Source of the DNA: DHVE2 group archaeon
Lineage (GTDB): Archaea > Thermoplasmatota > Thermoplasmata > Thermoplasmatales > Aciduliprofundaceae
Assembly: GCA_027023265.1 (NCBI GenBank)
Contig: JALVVV010000030.1
Coordinates: forward strand, 1 to 37,736
Length of the DNA: 37,736 nucleotides
Reading direction: 5' to 3'
The notes beneath the pieces are model-generated. The model was not told the origin of the DNA. It was given only the letters and a program-made list of their open reading frames with translations, and did not search any database. This document shows positions 6,373 through 14,218 of the stretch, piece after piece; within the stretch, counting starts at the first letter, position 1, and every line of letters starts with the position of its first letter. The position numbers and the translations under genes are program-made.

Positions 6373-7067
6373 ATGACAATAAGTTTTGAGCCTTCCGGTA
6401 TAAAGAAATTGGATGAAGCGCTTGGCGGAGGATTTCCAAAAGGTGGCGTGTCTCTGATAGTGGGACCAACGGGAATTGGCAAAACCCTTTTAGCATTACA
6501 ATGGCTTGCAGAAGGAGTTAAAAACGGACAAAATGTGGTTTACATATCTACAACTGTTCCCGTGGAAAGAATCAAGGAGTACTACGGCTCGGCACCGTTC
6601 CTAAAGGATGCAGTCTCAAAAATAAGATGGTACAACATGGATGTAGAGCCAAAGGAACTAATCCCATTCACGGAGAACAAGCAGAAGAGGCTGTTCCATA
6701 ATGTTATGCCAGATATCATTGATGAGGACATGATGCAAAAATAAAGATTCACCGGGGAGTTATTGACAGCATAACCTCATTTGACCGGATAATCGGAGAT
6801 AAAGCACTATTCAGATACGTTTCTTCGCAGTTCATAAAATACTTCAACAAAGTGGGCATATCCGCCATGCTCATTGAAGAATCAAACTTGGGAGAAGTCA
6901 CATCTGGAGGTGAAATGCGGAATTTCGCAGAGGCTACAATTGTAATGGACTACATAGAATCAAAGAACATGTACATGAGGGCAATGAAAATAATGAAAAG
7001 ATACGGTGTGAATCACCCAACATACTGGATGCCATTCCACATAACGGATGAGGGATTAGTGCTATGA
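6373..7067 (+). pseudogene. KaiC-like RecA-family ATPase interrupted by a -1 frameshift
   Basis: The first frame (6373-6744) gives SGIKKLDEALGGGFPKGG followed by a perfect Walker A (GPTGIGKT, residues 31-38). It stops at TAA 6742-6744, just after an A5 run at 6737-6741. Re-reading one A moves into a frame that is open to 7067. That frame supplies the missing half: the Walker B-type strand GVIDSITSF, a helix, ISAMLIEE, and the KaiC-like ending MRAMKIMKRYGVNHP. Joined, the product is about 231 residues, the usual size of a single-domain KaiC-like protein. It could be a recent pseudogene, a base-call error in a homopolymer, or programmed frameshifting on AAA followed by a stop. It overlaps the next gene by ATGA. 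Confidence 0.75.
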
Positions 7068-7926: not shown

Positions 7927-7982
7927 CAATCCACCTGCAAGCAGGGGTAACCGAGCCAGGTCAAAGGTGCGGGATTTAGGGT
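7927..7982 (+). repeat. Left attachment site (attL) with truncated tRNA-Leu 5' half
   Basis: This is identical over all 56 bases to 13951-14006. It contains 14 bases of tRNA 5' flank, then tRNA bases 1-42 (7941-7982): acceptor strand GCAGGGG, the D arm, and the anticodon stem and loop up to the first base after the loop. The 3' half of the tRNA is missing here, so this copy cannot fold into a tRNA. The repeat also encodes protein in the integrase frame (NPPASRGNRARSKVRDLG). Confidence 0.93.
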
Positions 7983-8890
7983 TATTTAGCCACCCTGTCG
8001 GGAGGCAAAGCGCTCCCACTGGTCGCGCTCCCGCCCCGTATGGGTTCGAGGATAAGGTTTTCACTTTTGAAAGAGTTAAAGATGATTTCTCCAAGTGGCT
8101 CTATGGGCGGGTTAACCCAGATTATGCAAAAAGCCAGATAAGATATTTATCTAAATACGCTAAAGATAAATCCATAGCCACGCCAAGGGACGTGTACGAG
8201 ATTAGAGGGAGTGCCACGAGCAAAAAGAAGATAACCGTGGTTTTGCGTAATCTTTTAAACTACGCCGAAGAGTTTGATTTAATAGATGACTATAAAATTA
8301 ACAAGATGAGAAAGGTATTAAAAACCGTTAAAAGTGGAGCGGATAACTACGTGCCGCCAACCTCTAAACTAAGAGAGATATACCTTGCTATTGATAACCC
8401 GCAGTATGATTTACTGTTCCGTATTCTCGCCTATTCTGGCCTTAGGGTTATTGAAGGCATTAATTTTCTCTCTAACTATAACCCTAAACGACTTGAGGAA
8501 GGCGATAATTTTGTAAGGTATCCTCTTTTTGCGGTGCGCCACTCTAAAAAGGTTTACTATGTTTATTTACCCGCAAGTATGAAAGAGGAGCTTAAACAGA
8601 TGTCCGTATCGCTCCCGGGCTTTAAAAATTACTTATCACGGCGCGGGTTATCACCTAAGTACCTCCGAAAGTGGAATTATAACTTTCTAATCATGCACAA
8701 CGTACCGGAGAGTGTGGCCGATTTTCTCCAAGGAAGAGCGGCCATCTCCATTGGCTCCATGCACTATTTAGCAAAAGTTAAACAAGCGGATTTCTGGTAT
8801 AGTAAAATCACCGATGAGCTGGAGAGCGCGTTAGAGCAAAAAGAAGAATCACCGAAAACAGTACTCCACGAAGCCACAGCATCCCCCTAA
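7967..8890 (+). CDS. Tyrosine integrase, catalytic C-terminal part (IntC) of a split SSV-type integrase
   Basis: The frame is open through the att site; the first possible start is a GTG at 7967 inside the tRNA anticodon stem. Catalytic elements of archaeal phage-type integrases are visible: SGLRVIEG (first Arg), KYLRKWNYNFL (second Arg region), FLQGR, and HYLAKVKQADFWY with the likely nucleophile tyrosine. In the rejoined 386-residue protein these are R239, R313 and Y346. The true N-terminus is at 13754-14006 at the other end of the element, and the joined frame has no stop. In this integrated form the left piece is probably inactive for integration. Excision would need full-length enzyme from a circular copy or from another element. 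Confidence 0.9.
   Translation: MRDLGLFSHPVGRQSAPTGRAPAPYGFEDKVFTFERVKDDFSKWLYGRVNPDYAKSQIRYLSKYAKDKSIATPRDVYEIRGSATSKKKITVVLRNLLNYAEEFDLIDDYKINKMRKVLKTVKSGADNYVPPTSKLREIYLAIDNPQYDLLFRILAYSGLRVIEGINFLSNYNPKRLEEGDNFVRYPLFAVRHSKKVYYVYLPASMKEELKQMSVSLPGFKNYLSRRGLSPKYLRKWNYNFLIMHNVPESVADFLQGRAAISIGSMHYLAKVKQADFWYSKITDELESALEQKEESPKTVLHEATASP
8029..8051 (+). other. Relic of tRNA-Leu 3' half inside intC
   Basis: These 23 bases match tRNA-Leu bases 14006-14028 at 21 positions (anticodon-stem 3' strand, variable arm, start of the T arm). A 46-base insertion (7983-8028) separates them from the att core. One mismatch turns TAG into TAT in the integrase frame, keeping it open. The T arm beyond is degenerate, so this is no working tRNA. 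It shows that the element once carried more of the tRNA. Confidence 0.6.
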
Positions 8891-9187
8891 GAGAGGAGTT
8901 TATACTTTCCCATTTTTTAGCGTAAACCCTCGGATTTTCGTGTTATTTTTGACGGTTTGTGGCATACATTTTATTTATAATATTCTCTTTGAAGGCAGAT
9001 AAGCAAAGAAAACATACAATTTTATTTTTACTATTTTTTTAAAAAATAAGAAATAGTGTAAAAATAGTAGGAAAGTTTAAATACAGGTTCTTGTTGCCCG
9101 TCTCCGAAGGTTTTATATATGATAACTTATTACGATATATTGGAGAGCCTTAATTAAAAGGCTTAAAAAAAATGAAGGTGTAAAAAA
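8891..9187 (+). promoter_or_regulatory. AT-rich non-coding region: rep-operon promoter and candidate replication origin
   Basis: This is the only long gene-free stretch of the element. It holds a 10-bp inverted repeat (TACTATTTTT at 9029-9038, AAAAATAGTA at 9060-9069) that encloses most of a second palindrome, TATTTTTT/AAAAAATA around base 9040. There are also TATA-like boxes at about 9075-9083 and 9111-9120. A hairpin at 9146-9163 (AGCCTT/AAGGCT, 6-base loop) lies at the predicted transcript start, a natural operator for the CopG-like protein encoded next. A ribosome site GGTG precedes 9188. Origin function is inferred from AT richness, palindromes and position before rep. Confidence 0.5.
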
Positions 9188-9334
9188 ATGAATGGGGATT
9201 ACGTGCACATATATTTAGACCCGACCACAGCACGGCTTTTTGAAAAAGCCATAGAGATAACAAAGAAAAGCAGGAGTGGTTTGGTAAGAGAAGCACTAAA
9301 GGAGAAATTTGAGAAGATGGGGATAAAAGAATAA
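9188..9334 (+). CDS. CopG-like ribbon-helix-helix regulator
   Basis: The 48-residue protein has the ribbon-helix-helix plan: one strand (YVHIYLDPTTARLF), helix 1 (EKAIEITKKS), a turn RSGLVREALK typical of the second helix, and a basic tail. It occupies the place of the CopG-type copy-number repressor in pRN1-family plasmids, which binds inverted repeats in its own promoter. A matching hairpin lies at 9146-9163. A GGTG ribosome site precedes the ATG. It probably represses its own operon and so limits replication-protein synthesis; this role is inferred from family and position. Confidence 0.8.
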   Translation: MNGDYVHIYLDPTTARLFEKAIEITKKSRSGLVREALKEKFEKMGIKE

Positions 9335-9352
9335 AAAAAGGAGCGTGAAAAA

Positions 9353-9655
9353 ATGGAAATAGAAGAATTAGCAAATAGGTATAGTTTTGCAGGTATAAAA
9401 GACTTTTGGATAGAGACTTTAGGGAACGGCGAAATAACCATAGTTGTGGACTTAACCCGCCAAGACGAGGAGCTCTTAAATTGTGTAACATCCATGCAAG
9501 TGGGCGCTAATTGGGTGGATAACATTAGAGGTACCCAATGTTTAGAGCTCTACATAGACCCAACGGCACAAGAGCCAATACCTTTTAGTGGTTTGTACAC
9601 TGATGGCTATAACTGTGTAAAGCTCCATATCAAAGTGGGTGGTGCAAAGCAATGA
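9353..9655 (+). CDS. Element-encoded protein of unknown function, coupled to rep
   Basis: This is 100 residues with an AGGAG ribosome site before the ATG. Its stop overlaps the start of rep (ATGA), so the two are translationally coupled. The sequence looks like a small alpha-beta domain: a helix (IEELANRYSFAG), strands WIETLGNGEITIVVDLT and CLELYIDP, and VKLHIKV near the end. It has three cysteines without a CxxC pair. I do not recognise it. Its position between copG and rep suggests a replication accessory factor. Confidence 0.7.
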   Translation: MEIEELANRYSFAGIKDFWIETLGNGEITIVVDLTRQDEELLNCVTSMQVGANWVDNIRGTQCLELYIDPTAQEPIPFSGLYTDGYNCVKLHIKVGGAKQ

Positions 9656-12486
9656 CCGCTAAAGCGCTGGTGGATAAATATCTCCAGTGGGGCTTTAATG
9701 TTATGCCAGCGAGAGACGGGGAGAAAATACCAGTGGGCAAATGGAAGCCCTACCAGAGGGAGAAATACCCGCAGGAAGAAATAGAAGAATGGCTTAGCCA
9801 CGAAAAAGAGAATTGGGTTGTTGTGTGCGGTGCAATAAGCGGGAATTTGGTTGTTGTGGACTTTGATAAACCCGAACTTTATGACCAATTTAAGAAGCAA
9901 ATACCCGAGGAGCTACTTAATACCTTTATCGTAAAAACGGGCAAAAAGGGATACCATGTTTATTACCGCACGCCGGAACCCGTGGAGGGCACTAAAATTG
10001 GTAAGATAGACATACAGGGAGAAGGTAAATTAGCGGTACTCCCGCCGTCCATACATCCGGAAACGAGGAGAAGGTACGAGATAATCAACGATAAAGAGCC
10101 GCTAAACATCGACACAGACGCATGGAACCATATTTTTACCACGATAAAAGAAATTGCAGAGATGGAAAAAGAGAAAGAGGTTGTTAAAGATAAACTCATG
10201 AAGATTGTTGAAACCATTATCCCGTATTGGAGAGAAGGCCAACGGGACATCATGGAAAACGCATTAGTGGGATATATGCGGAAAAAGGGTATGCCTAAAG
10301 AATACGCTAAATTTGTAATATCGGCCATTGTTGAGGGCACAAATGATAAAGAAAAAAGCATGAGGATGGCGGTACTGGAGAGAAATTACCGGATTCCGGA
10401 ATCAGATTTAAAGGGATATACCCAACTGAGAGAGTTACTCCCCGAAAAGGAGTTGTGGAAGCTGGAAAAACAGGTAAAAGCGGTTACAGGTGATAACTAC
10501 AACCAGCACACGGAGAACACTAAAGAAGAAGTGAAAAAAACAAAAATAGTTCCATACATAGCACTCCCCGAAAAGCTTTATTTGGCGGTTGAAGAGAGCG
10601 AAGATAAATATTATTTTGCACATCTAAACAATGGTAAAATTGAGCTTTTGGAAAGTATAGAGATTAACGGCGTGGAGCATGTCCCCAGAGGAGCGGAGGG
10701 TTTGCCCATCGGTTACCCTACAATAGATATTGTTAACACTCCAGCTTTACAAACTAAAGAGCTTGTGGAGCGGTTAAAATCGCACATTTGGCAATATGTG
10801 GATTTAGATGAGGATAACCTTGACATGGCCGTTTATTACATCCTATCATCGTGGTTTTACCGCAAAGCGAACACCACGGCCTATCTCCGAATACTCGGCG
10901 ATACTGGAAAAGGAAAAAGCCGTATGTTAAAAGTAATTGGCGACCTTTGTTTTTATCCGCTAAAGCTGGGGGGGAACGCATCCCGTGCCGCAATAATGAG
11001 GGTACAGGAAAAATATCATGGTACGCTGGTTTTAGACGAGAGCGACATAAAAGGCGACAAAGAAGATGATTTAGTAAAATATATAAATACTGGATTTGAA
11101 AAAGGTAATAAGGTTATTCTCGTGAATAAAAACACTTACAATGTTGAGACTTTTGACCCGTTCGGCCCCAAGCTCTTTGCCATGCGGCATCCGTTCGGGG
11201 ACGCTGCCACCGAAGGAAGGTTACTATCTATTGAACCCTACGAGACACTGAGAACAGATATACCGGCAGTTTTACCACTAAGTTATGAGAATGAGGTAAA
11301 GCATCTTAGAAACACCATAGCCGTGTGGACGCTGGTAAACTGGGATAAAGTGAAAATGGAAAACAGAGACTTTATTCAGAGGCTCCCGATAGAACCGAGA
11401 TTAAAACAACTGGCAACGCCGTTAAGCATTATACTCCCACTATTTGGCGAGGGTATGGATAATAAATTTGTGGAGTGGTTGTTAAGGAGGCAAGAGGCAA
11501 TATCCCGAACCCGCGCCAATACCGATGAGGGACTGGTATTTACTGCCATCGTGGATTTGGCCATGAAACTAAAAGATGACGAGGGAGAAAACAAAGCTAT
11601 TACTACAACCATGATTAAAGATGAAACCGGCTTACATCCACGGCGAATAAAAAAGATTCTCGAAGAGCTGGGTTTTGAAGTGAAAACAACCACTAAGAAG
11701 GTTGACGGCGTGAGAACAACCATGCGAGTGATAACCGCAATTGATACCCAGCGGTGGGTTGAGAGCTGGAGGAGATACCACTGGGGAGAAGAAATAATAG
11801 ATGTGCCCGATTTTCTCCGAGACCCCAGACGGGAATATGTAAAAGTGGAGGATATAATGATGCATCGCTTGCATCGCAATCATCGCCACCATGGGGTACA
11901 GGAGAAAACTAACATAAAAGATGATAAAAACACTAAAGATAATGTAACCTCATTTTCCGGTGTACGTCATGGTAGTGATGCATCCGATGTATCCGATGCA
12001 CATTTAGCGGATAACGACGACCCATTTAGACACAATGGGGCAAAGCTGGAAATAAACAACATACGCGGCTATAAGCTGGCTCCCGATATACCCCCTGCAA
12101 TACACACGGACGCACCGGCGGGGTTTACGCTAACATTTATCCCCTCTTTAGCGGCCATATTCCCCGAGCCACCGCAATATGAACACATGGAGCTTTTGAA
12201 AGACATAAACGGCATAGCATTGCCCGACCACAACATACCCCCGGTAAAGCGTGGGGAGGTAATACCGACTTCAAAAAAAGTTTTAAAAATAATGGAGAAG
12301 CGGGGCATAGCGAAGCGCACCACGGCCGAAATAAGTTTTAGTGTGCTATTCCGCAATTTGCCCGAAGAGCAAATAGACATACCAAAAGGGATGGCGCTGA
12401 AGCGCTGGAAGAATGACGAGCTGGGAATCGAGGGAGATATAGGGAGTATGTGGGTATCCTCTGGTTGTGCAAAGGTTGAAGCATGA
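9652..12486 (+). CDS. Replication protein: prim-pol primase/polymerase fused to AAA+/SF3-like helicase
   Basis: This 944-residue protein is close in size and plan to ORF904 of plasmid pRN1. The N-terminal prim-pol (about 1-170) opens with WGFNVMPARDGEKIPV. It has the metal-binding pair VVVDFDKPE (D70, D72) and a catalytic-type histidine in KKGYHVYYR (H102). The helicase has Walker A GDTGKGKS (416-423) and Walker B GTLVLDESD (457-465), followed by a sensor-like VILVNKN. Near residues 640-690 lies a winged-helix-like segment (TTTMIKDETGLHPRRIKKILEELGF). Then comes a low-complexity linker rich in His (about 736-748) and Asp/Ser (about 774-784), and a C-terminal domain I cannot assign. It should prime and unwind the element's origin. 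Confidence 0.92.
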   Translation: MTAKALVDKYLQWGFNVMPARDGEKIPVGKWKPYQREKYPQEEIEEWLSHEKENWVVVCGAISGNLVVVDFDKPELYDQFKKQIPEELLNTFIVKTGKKGYHVYYRTPEPVEGTKIGKIDIQGEGKLAVLPPSIHPETRRRYEIINDKEPLNIDTDAWNHIFTTIKEIAEMEKEKEVVKDKLMKIVETIIPYWREGQRDIMENALVGYMRKKGMPKEYAKFVISAIVEGTNDKEKSMRMAVLERNYRIPESDLKGYTQLRELLPEKELWKLEKQVKAVTGDNYNQHTENTKEEVKKTKIVPYIALPEKLYLAVEESEDKYYFAHLNNGKIELLESIEINGVEHVPRGAEGLPIGYPTIDIVNTPALQTKELVERLKSHIWQYVDLDEDNLDMAVYYILSSWFYRKANTTAYLRILGDTGKGKSRMLKVIGDLCFYPLKLGGNASRAAIMRVQEKYHGTLVLDESDIKGDKEDDLVKYINTGFEKGNKVILVNKNTYNVETFDPFGPKLFAMRHPFGDAATEGRLLSIEPYETLRTDIPAVLPLSYENEVKHLRNTIAVWTLVNWDKVKMENRDFIQRLPIEPRLKQLATPLSIILPLFGEGMDNKFVEWLLRRQEAISRTRANTDEGLVFTAIVDLAMKLKDDEGENKAITTTMIKDETGLHPRRIKKILEELGFEVKTTTKKVDGVRTTMRVITAIDTQRWVESWRRYHWGEEIIDVPDFLRDPRREYVKVEDIMMHRLHRNHRHHGVQEKTNIKDDKNTKDNVTSFSGVRHGSDASDVSDAHLADNDDPFRHNGAKLEINNIRGYKLAPDIPPAIHTDAPAGFTLTFIPSLAAIFPEPPQYEHMELLKDINGIALPDHNIPPVKRGEVIPTSKKVLKIMEKRGIAKRTTAEISFSVLFRNLPEEQIDIPKGMALKRWKNDELGIEGDIGSMWVSSGCAKVEA

Positions 12487-12499
12487 AGGAGTGGTAAAA

Positions 12500-12748
12500 A
12501 TGGAAAATGCCAAAAGTTGGGTAGGAAAAAAGATAATATATCGGTTTAGCGGTGGATACGTGCCAGACACGACGCTTTACGAGGGCACAGTAACGGGAGT
12601 GTCCACGGATGGGCAATATGTGCGTATTGCTTGCACATCTCCAGCATCTGCAAGAGAAGAAGAATGGCACCGAGCCGCAGATATTGACTTTGTGGCCGTG
12701 CCTGCGGACGCTCCGGACGAACCGCTGGAGGAGGAAGAGAGGCTATAA
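12500..12748 (+). CDS. Small SH3-like-fold protein of the element, function unknown
   Basis: The product has 82 residues. I chose the ATG at 12500 because AGGAGTGG lies 6-12 bases before it; an earlier ATG at 12467 is inside the end of rep and lacks such a site. The core KKIIYRFSGGYVPDTTLYEG, then TVTGVSTDGQYVRIA, alternates short strands in the way of small beta barrels that bind nucleic acid. The C-terminus is strongly acidic (DAPDEPLEEEERL). No family is recognised. It follows rep by only 13 bases, so it is probably in the same transcript. Confidence 0.65.
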   Translation: MENAKSWVGKKIIYRFSGGYVPDTTLYEGTVTGVSTDGQYVRIACTSPASAREEEWHRAADIDFVAVPADAPDEPLEEEERL

Positions 12749-12774
12749 GAGCAAGCAAAAAAGGAGGAATATGT

Positions 12775-13200
12775 ATGAATGAGATAGAAAAACAAATAAA
12801 AAGGATGGAATATATAAAGAAGAGGAACGAACAGGTAAGAAAGGAGAACGAGAAGAAACTAAACAAAGTTTTGAAGCAAATAAGAGATGATAAACAGTGC
12901 AAATACTGGGAAAAACTAAACAGAAGTGCCAACAAAAGGTTTTGGGTATGGCGGTTCAAAATGAAGGCAGACATAGAAAAGCAGGGGATTTATAACGCCC
13001 CCCTATTTAGTGGCCTATGGATTGGTTACAATAGGGATACCGGCGAAGTGACCATGCTCCTCGGATGGGAGAAGAGCCAAATAGAAGCGAAAAAAGAGAG
13101 AAAAACATGGATGCCAGAGGGTGAGGTTAAAACTTTTAAAGTTGATGACTTAGAAATACTGAGTAGGCAATATATAACCACCTTAAGAATAGGGGTATAG
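12775..13200 (+). CDS. Element-encoded coiled-coil protein of unknown function
   Basis: This is 141 residues with an AAGGAGGAA ribosome site before the ATG. The first 55 residues are a basic, Lys/Glu/Asn-rich helix with coiled-coil spacing (IEKQIKRMEYIKKRNEQVRK onward). A more globular part with several Trp residues follows (RFWVWRFKMKAD, SGLWIGYNRDTGEVTMLLGW). I see no known domain. It lies two bases before the next gene, within the rep transcript. A structural, DNA-binding or host-interaction role is possible but unproven. Confidence 0.65.
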   Translation: MNEIEKQIKRMEYIKKRNEQVRKENEKKLNKVLKQIRDDKQCKYWEKLNRSANKRFWVWRFKMKADIEKQGIYNAPLFSGLWIGYNRDTGEVTMLLGWEKSQIEAKKERKTWMPEGEVKTFKVDDLEILSRQYITTLRIGV

Positions 13201-13202
13201 CC

Positions 13203-13556
13203 ATGCCATTTACGAAAGAGAACGCTAAAGAGGAAGGGAGAAAAGGCGGAAGCAAGTCCACAACTGCCAAGAGGTTAGTTAAGCGGAAATACTGCACACC
13301 TTCATGCCCGATATGGGATAAATGTCCACTGATGCCGATGGCACAACAAAAGTGGGTAACAAAGCCACACGGAGAGAGGGCACACCCATGCCTTCTCAAC
13401 CAGCTCCCCATGGACGCACAAAGGCGGATAAGAAGGCTTTTTCTCTCCGATAGAGATGGCCTAATTGAAGAGCTCAAAGACGTGCTCTTTAATCTCTCCT
13501 CTTTAGCGGAAGAGCATCCGGATAAAAATCTAATCAAATACGGGGTTTACTACTGA
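13203..13556 (+). CDS. Cys-cluster protein of the element with KGG-like N-terminus
   Basis: The 117-residue product begins with a Lys/Gly motif (KEEGRKGGSKST), like the KGG/stress-protein motif also found at the start of some phage proteins. It then has a cysteine cluster (YCTPSCPIWDKCP) and a further Cys in HPCLLNQLP. The pattern C-x3-C-x5-C-x~25-C could bind zinc or an iron-sulfur cluster. The C-terminal half is helical and acidic (IEELKDVLFNLSSLAEE). A resemblance in style to small terminase-type phage proteins is weak, and I do not assign it. It is the best candidate for element-specific biology beyond replication. Confidence 0.65.
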   Translation: MPFTKENAKEEGRKGGSKSTTAKRLVKRKYCTPSCPIWDKCPLMPMAQQKWVTKPHGERAHPCLLNQLPMDAQRRIRRLFLSDRDGLIEELKDVLFNLSSLAEEHPDKNLIKYGVYY

Positions 13557-13669
13557 AGGCAATAACCACGATATACGGGCAAAAAATCCAAGAAGAGGGC
13601 CAAAAGGAGATAACCATTAAACTCCACGTGGTAGGTGACGACGGAGAGGAAAATAAGCCCGCCTTTTAA
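13553..13669 (+). CDS. Possible 38-residue protein starting at CTG, coupled by CTGA overlap
   Basis: The frame runs from CTG at 13553, overlapping the upstream TGA, to TAA at 13667. The product KAITTIYGQKIQEEGQKEITIKLHVVGDDGEE looks coding: alternating strand residues and a charged tail. There is no ATG, GTG or TTG in this frame after the previous in-frame stop, so initiation would have to use CTG or be reinitiation. It could equally be a decayed remnant. Confidence 0.35.
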   Translation: MKAITTIYGQKIQEEGQKEITIKLHVVGDDGEENKPAF

Positions 13670-13702
13670 GCAGGTTACAGCCCTCTAAAGTGATTATACG
13701 CC

Positions 13703-13716
13703 TCTTTAATTTTTTT
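13703..13716 (+). terminator. T-rich terminator after the element's main operon
   Basis: A TCTTTAATTTTTTT run lies 34 bases after the last small frame and before the integrase N-terminal gene. It probably ends the rep operon transcript. Confidence 0.4.
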
Positions 13717-13753
13717 AGCAAAGGTTAAGTAGTTTGAATTAATTAACTAACTT

Positions 13754-14006
13754 ATGGGAAGACCAAGAAGAAAATATGGAAGGACATATAATTTTTACCT
13801 TAGTGATGAGGTAGATGCGCTAATAGAGCAATACCGAGGCGAAAAATCAAGAAGCGCGTTTATTGAAGAGGCCGTAAAATTCTATATTTCCCATTTAGCG
13901 GGAGACACTAAGGAAGGAGACGAAAAACAAAAAATAGATAACCATGAATGCAATCCACCTGCAAGCAGGGGTAACCGAGCCAGGTCAAAGGTGCGGGATT
14001 TAGGGT
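13754..14006 (+). CDS. N-terminal part of split integrase (IntN) with ribbon-helix-helix domain
   Basis: This starts at ATG 13754. Residues of about 1-50 (GRPRRKYGRTYNFYLSDEV, then a helix, then SRSAFIEEAVKFYISHLAG) read as a ribbon-helix-helix DNA-binding domain. The frame enters the att site (NPPASRGNRARSKVRDLG) and would continue into the catalytic part at 7983 in the circular form: 253 + 908 bases = 387 codons with no stop. In the integrated state it runs instead through the tRNA gene and ends at 14200 with a meaningless tail of about 64 residues. The resulting protein would keep the DNA-binding domain but no catalytic residues. Confidence 0.82.
13932..13940 (+). promoter_or_regulatory. 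Possible replacement promoter for tRNA-Leu supplied by the element
   Basis: AAATAGATA is centred about 29 bases before the intact tRNA-Leu, within intN and outside the repeat. It is the only TATA-like stretch at the right distance. It is weaker-looking than the host's CTTAAAT at 7911-7917. Confidence 0.35.
13951..14006 (+). repeat. Right attachment site (attR)
   Basis: This is the second copy of the 56-bp repeat, identical to 7927-7982. Here the tRNA 5' half is followed by the host 3' half, so an intact tRNA-Leu is rebuilt. Crossover must lie within these 56 bases, ending at the 3' side of the anticodon loop (14006). Confidence 0.93.
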
Positions 14007-14049
14007 CCCGTCCCGTAGGGGTTCGAGGGTTCGAATCCCTCCCCCTGCA
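13965..14049 (+). tRNA. tRNA-Leu (anticodon TAG)
   Basis: The gene is 85 bases. Acceptor GCAGGGG (13965-13971) pairs with CCCCTGC (14042-14048), with discriminator A at 14049. The anticodon stem CGGGA/TCCCG (13994-13998/14006-14010) closes the loop TTTAGGG with anticodon TAG at 14001-14003, reading CUA leucine codons. A long variable arm (class II) fits tRNA-Leu, and the T arm GAGGG-TTCGAAT-CCCTC is perfect. CCA is not encoded and there is no intron. The first 42 bases are supplied by the element's att site; the rest is host. Confidence 0.95.
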
Positions 14050-14218
14050 CTCACTCGCTTCTCTCGTTCGATTAGGAGAATTAGTCGCAAAGGCGTTACT
14101 TTGCTTCTCCCTCCCCTGCGTCCCTTCGGGTCATTTATTCTACGGGACAGTCCCTTCAGAATCAACAATATTTATGGCTTACCCAAACTTTAAAAAATGA
14201 GAATACATACCTGCCAAT

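Follow-up and report, generated by a model that had tools for sequence, protein, structure and literature searches.

A small integrative plasmid with a suicidal integrase in a DHVE2 archaeon and the probable switching of its tRNA target among relatives

Here, we describe a 6,024-bp element that lies between positions 7927 and 14006 of a 37,736-nucleotide stretch of contig JALVVV010000030.1 (the window), from the genome of a DHVE2 group archaeon (G000; 1.64 Mb, 99% complete). The element is very probably a small integrative plasmid of the primase-polymerase (prim-pol), pRN-like type, with a suicidal tyrosine integrase whose gene (int) is split on integration, and with an attachment (att) cassette in int that has been swapped within the lineage. 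It has exact borders, an int frame that is restored when its ends are joined, an empty counterpart in another genome, a rebuilt tRNA gene and relatives that follow the same logic. A reading made from the letters alone, without database searches (the sequence-only reading), had set the limits of the element correctly and had proposed a Thermoplasmata-type host, in agreement with this DHVE2/Aciduliprofundum-group euryarchaeon of deep-sea vents. It had missed the more unusual fact, which is that the attachment site lies in a tRNA gene, the right-hand repeat taking up its 5′ half in the sense direction.

Element borders and the rebuilt tRNA gene

The element is bounded by two copies of a 56-bp direct repeat without a single mismatch, at 7927-7982 and 13951-14006, as the sequence-only reading had reported. 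The distance from start to start, 6,024 bp, is the element size, and the remaining direct repeats in the vicinity are short and imperfect. The features of the borders and of the integrase gene are:

7927..7982, + strand: attL, the left copy of the 56-bp repeat; a shortened tRNA copy made of nucleotides 1-42 of tRNA-Leu(UAG), preceded by 14 bp of upstream host DNA; agrees with the empty site of genome G002
13951..14006, + strand: attR, the right copy of the 56-bp repeat; 5′ half of the intact tRNA-Leu(UAG)
13965..14050, + strand: intact tRNA-Leu(UAG), in which the element supplies the 5′ half and the host the 3′ half of the rebuilt gene; single copy in the genome
7983..8890, + strand: int(C), integrase part that comprises the core-binding and catalytic regions; Phage_integr_3 (PF16795), E 5.5e-41
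13754..14006, + strand: int(N), N-terminal integrase piece, read in the joined frame; weak ribbon-helix-helix match
7983..8028, + strand: stretch of 46-47 nucleotides that follows the att core and precedes a diverged tRNA remnant; unmatched elsewhere among the 61 genomes searched
8029..8051, + strand: diverged copy of tRNA-Leu nucleotides 42-64 (variable region) inside the integrase gene; 21/23 identical to 14006-14028

The repeat ends just past the 7-nucleotide anticodon loop of tRNA-Leu(UAG). All five tRNA-Leu genes found in the genome carry different anticodons, so this one is present in a single copy, and it is presumably essential. The empty site that had been predicted for related genomes is present in the same-genus genome G002 (G002:C100:21382-21537), with 98% identity and 156/156 bp aligned. 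In addition, a sister element in genome G015 has the same plan and sits in the same tRNA-Leu(UAG). Given the empty site, an assembly error is unlikely.

The split integrase gene

Joining 13754-14006 to 7983-8890 gives 1,161 nucleotides in a single open frame. The sequence-only reading had counted exactly 387 codons with no stop; the frame is indeed open, and the count includes the terminal stop, so that the gene consists of 386 codons followed by TAA. The reading had also pointed out that SSV-type integrases carry the att site of the mobile form (attP) in their own gene and are split by integration, and the open joined frame, the repeat borders, the empty site and the PF16795 match all support this. 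The Arg, Lys, Arg and Tyr active-site positions of int(C) align with the SSV1 integrase structures 3uxu/3vcf. According to this alignment, the predicted catalytic tyrosine is Y346 of the joined protein, or Y267 of the open reading frame (ORF) that begins at 7967, where an in-frame GTG within the left repeat could start int(C).

The N-terminal piece weakly resembles a ribbon-helix-helix (RHH) domain. Its RHH match scores 19.7 bits, below the cut-off of 20.5, and its structure model shows a strand-helix-helix arrangement with a mean predicted local distance difference test (pLDDT) score of 79. MazE6, CdbA and CopG, all of the RHH type, ranked top in a fold search, at E values of about 3-8 that are supportive at most, and a profile of IntN found no RHH chain among PDB sequences.

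The tRNA remnant inside int stands out from the rest of the window, where the next best match to its 23 nucleotides, the tRNA itself excluded, reaches 14/23. We considered a captured tRNA intron as the origin of 7983-8028 and obtained no support for it: for a chimera of the remnant and the real 3′ end, ARAGORN reported no intron-bearing Leu tRNA and forced a tRNA-Gly, and nothing similar was found in the 61 genomes.

Proposed integration mechanism

In the circular form, position 14006 would be joined to 7983, leaving int whole (386 amino acids) with attP inside it. The integrase would pair the tRNA-like stretch of its own gene with the sole tRNA-Leu(UAG) gene of the host, and strand exchange probably takes place within the 7-nucleotide anticodon loop. 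After integration, int(N) would run into the 5′ half of the restored tRNA at the right end, and at the left end the former tRNA 5′ half of the host would be fused to int(C). Because the element donates the tRNA 5′ half, the rebuilt tRNA sits downstream of the putative int promoter. The tRNA would then probably be transcribed from this promoter, and int(C) from the former tRNA promoter. The same promoter consequence for the rebuilt tRNA has been described for pTN3 integration (PMC8371274, PMC5495485).

Excision would require an intact related integrase in trans, and excision of this kind has been reported for pTN3/TKV4 and SSV2 (PMC8371274). Catalysis, the exchange point, the promoters and their transcription, excision and the circular replication of the element are predictions that we draw from the sequence. 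A single-copy, presumably essential tRNA placed under a plasmid promoter could explain why int(N) remnants last beside tRNAs after the element has been lost.

Related elements and changes of tRNA target

A close comparison comes from a plasmid in genome G005, whose backbone and int(N) share 84% DNA identity with window positions 12006-13935, up to about 15 bp before att. Past the att border, this plasmid has tRNA-Phe(GAA), 3′ half antisense, in place of tRNA-Leu. Pieces of int(N) also adjoin tRNA-Phe in G009 and G017 and tRNA-Cys (sense) in G014, and int(C) starts with the 5′ half of tRNA-Cys in G016 and with the 3′ half of tRNA-Phe in G014. A second suicidal element is present in G000 itself (C49:65855-90926). 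It spans 25,020 bp, with a 52-bp repeat in tRNA-Leu(GAG), of which it uses the 3′ half antisense, and its joined int frame is open. Its int(C) is 49-50% identical to that of the window, and its IntN differs, without an RHH match. Elements of the same kind also occur in G002 and G007.

The tRNA half and its polarity thus vary, and the anticodon-loop edge is constant: the identity of att to the tRNA extends to the anticodon loop, in either polarity, in all seven int(C) loci examined. The tRNA nucleotides contained in att are 1-42 for Leu-UAG, 1-37 for Cys, 73-30 for Phe, 85-35 for Leu-GAG and 84-33 for the Leu-UAA of Archaeoglobaceae.

The repeat bases outside the tRNA are specific to the host. 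In G000, both repeat copies share 14 upstream bp, with two positions different from the G002 empty site. In G015, both copies share ~45 upstream bp that are also found at the tRNA-Leu of the same-genus genome G017 and not in G000. This suggests that attP was captured anew from the current host, which could happen, for example, if integration and excision crossed over at different points.

The int(C) phylogeny adds to this picture. The integrases of the window and of G015 stand beside the DHVE2 integrases that use 3′ halves (clade support 99/98), with Archaeoglobaceae next and pTN3 distant. Constraining pTN3 to group with the two 5′-half DHVE2 integrases was borderline rejected by the approximately unbiased test (p-AU 0.046). 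Once the incomplete int(C) sequences from G016 and G014 were included (about 180 aligned columns, 18 sequences), G015 (Leu, 5′ sense) became sister to G014 (Phe, 3′ antisense) with 100/99 support, and grouping the two Leu-UAG integrases together was rejected (p-AU 0.001). More than one change of target and polarity has therefore probably taken place, independently of the int tree.

On balance we lean, by a small measure, toward the view that the tRNA half is not a fixed trait of an integrase family. The integrase would act at the near-palindromic anticodon stem-loop in either polarity, and att would be re-captured from the host together with host-specific flanks, so that sister integrases and plasmids land in 5′ (sense) or 3′ (antisense) halves of tRNAs with or without a long variable arm.

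We also made several observations on related loci. The C49 element carries HsdR and HsdM genes for type I restriction-modification, along with a related C-terminal Rep half (L079, L080). By eye its IntN appeared AbrB-like; Pfam and PDB searches gave no match, and we do not claim this assignment. A 3.7-kb Archaeoglobaceae element (L104:9994-13734) occupies tRNA-Leu(UAA), where its repeat measures 52 bp. It contains a methylase-like gene, an unassigned gene and a stop inside int(C), and no rep was seen in it. Related integrases in the metagenome-assembled genome (MAG) S141 and in Woesearchaeota/Nanoarchaeota MAGs (L106, L107, L112-L114, L116, L119, L121-L123, L126) are found immediately 3′ of a complete tRNA gene that is oriented the same way, and these may not be suicidal. 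At L088:6491-6742 (G011), L179:4803-5003 (G009) and L180:1585-1722 (G014), decayed int(N) pieces directly adjoin tRNA genes, and no int(C) was found at these sites.

Plasmid backbone genes

The genes between the two integrase pieces are:

9188..9334, + strand: copG, ribbon-helix-helix regulator, 48 amino acids; PF01402, 22.0 bits, above the cut-off
9353..9655, + strand: 100-amino-acid ORF between copG and rep; no family match
9652..12486, + strand: Rep, predicted replication protein, 944 amino acids, with an N-terminal prim-pol domain followed by a P-loop ATPase region; PF09250, 4e-23
12500..12748, + strand: 82-amino-acid ORF; 82% identical in the G005 plasmid
12775..13200, + strand: 141-amino-acid ORF; 83% identical in the G005 plasmid
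13203..13556, + strand: 117-amino-acid ORF, Cys-rich in one stretch; identity of 92% to the G005 plasmid and of 62% to G017

The PF09250 and PF01402 matches confirm the earlier description of a prim-pol replicon in which copG and a small gene precede rep. The label 'pRN1-like prim-pol/helicase' applies in its first half: the Rep prim-pol domain matches pRN1 ORF904 chains. Its helicase half is unproven, the Walker A (GDTGKGKS) and Walker B (LVLDE) motifs having been read by eye, and searches of this half for superfamily 3 (SF3) helicase and winged-helix domains gave no Pfam or PDB match. The nearest plasmid Reps (pIT3, a Sulfolobus neozealandicus plasmid and Thermococcus indicus pTI1) align over the prim-pol domain and little beyond. 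No match to the Rep was found in IMG/VR viral contigs, and the small ORFs matched no family in Pfam, PHROGs or NCBIfam. Near the element, a KaiC/RadA-like ATPase gene (window 6373-7067) seems broken: a stop at 6744 ends its frame, and the coding sequence continues to 7067 in a different one.

Alternative explanations

Several points weigh against an integrative plasmid with a swapped att cassette. Several of the elements used for comparison are incomplete, cut off where metagenome contigs end, and the free circle, its excision and its expression are predictions from assembled DNA. The helicase half of Rep has no family match and the structure model of Rep is unusable (mean pLDDT 45). The scores that would make int(N) a true RHH domain are weak. 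The element could instead be a dead, immobile remnant, with a split integrase, nothing to excise it and a rebuilt tRNA that pins it in place. We consider this unlikely. The integrase gene is indeed split, and in relatives such as G011, G009 and G014 decayed int(N) pieces stand beside tRNA-Leu(UAG) or other tRNAs with no element to be found, but all genes of the element are open, its att copies are still identical over 56 bp, close relatives occupy other sites, and excision in trans by a related integrase has been reported for pTN3 and SSV2 (PMC8371274).

Two further alternatives concern the nature of the element and the origin of its polarity. We give very little credence to a small provirus in place of a plasmid: related integrases do occur in a pleolipovirus-like Archaeoglobus provirus and in fuselloviruses, but PHROG and Pfam searches matched none of the small ORFs to a structural protein, and 6 kb with a prim-pol Rep is plasmid-like. 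Inheritance of the 5′-half polarity from a pTN3-like integrase, rather than a separate origin, is improbable. pTN3 also takes the tRNA-Leu 5′ half with the same end position (PMC5495485, PMC8371274), and the one-clade test is borderline at p-AU 0.046. However, identity to pTN3 is 25% against 33% to pT26-2, the window integrase is nested among 3′-half DHVE2 and Archaeoglobus integrases, and the pTN3 and window genes read the tRNA in different frames. The interpretation that we retain is an integrative plasmid whose att cassette has been exchanged within the lineage.

Comparison with known systems

The element is of a known kind, in a host lineage for which we found no report, and for the target-switching pattern we likewise found none; our search of the open-access literature, with subscription papers outside its scope, returned no paper on integrative plasmids of DHVE2 archaea. 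The sequence-only reading had singled out the pairing of a suicidal integrase with a pRN1-like replicon. Both parts are present, but the combination is not new. The Sulfolobus islandicus plasmid pXZ1 (NC_010365) is also small, has a suicidal PF16795 integrase and shows the same order of small DNA-binding protein, small ORF and large primase-type Rep. It differs in its Sulfolobales host, its IntN domain (PF07935), a Rep and an Int that are distantly related to those of the window, and an att that corresponds to a tRNA 3′ half antisense, as judged from the integrase translation. Both pXZ1 and pSSVi, the latter as a similar case, have been discussed (PMC8371274). The 7.7-kb euryarchaeal plasmid pTI1 of Thermococcus indicus (NZ_CP040847) has a prim-pol Rep gene immediately preceded by an RHH gene, but it has no annotated integrase and its Rep likeness is limited to the prim-pol domain.

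Among integrases, pTN3-like ones (Thermococcus nautili pTN3, TKV4) share with the window an att formed by the tRNA-Leu 5′ half to just past the anticodon loop, and a rebuilt tRNA that loses its own promoter (PMC5495485, PMC8371274). They differ in reading the tRNA in another frame; the pTN3 protein is longer, and in the part of pTN3 viewed, no prim-pol backbone like that of the window is seen around its integrase. The closest named integrases are pT26-2-like (Thermococcus, Pyrococcus pGE2, Archaeoglobus provirus ApPV1), with 31-34% identity over >80% of int(C); the IntN of pT26-2 has a weak antitoxin/RHH-like match. In contrast to the window element, these use the tRNA 3′ part antisense, and their carrier elements are 15-24 kb and were not found with a window-type Rep. 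Under a family criterion of about 30% identity over 60% (as in PMC8371274), the window integrase falls with pT26-2 (32.6% identity over 83% of the query) and outside the family of pTN3 (25.2%, E 5e-5).

The field has yet to explain how an integrase with its target inside its own gene can change that target and stay functional (PMC8371274). As judged from these comparisons, two published claims appear to be contradicted. Use of the 5′ half was said to be confined to pTN3-like integrases, and the window integrase is nearer pT26-2; target switching was said to be limited to one tRNA class, and G000 and G005 form a Leu/Phe pair. If true, the re-capture of att in either polarity contradicts both. 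The G000 and G005 elements, which have different att cassettes and share 84% DNA identity in the flanking int(N) and backbone, offer a ready pair for testing specificity and polarity.

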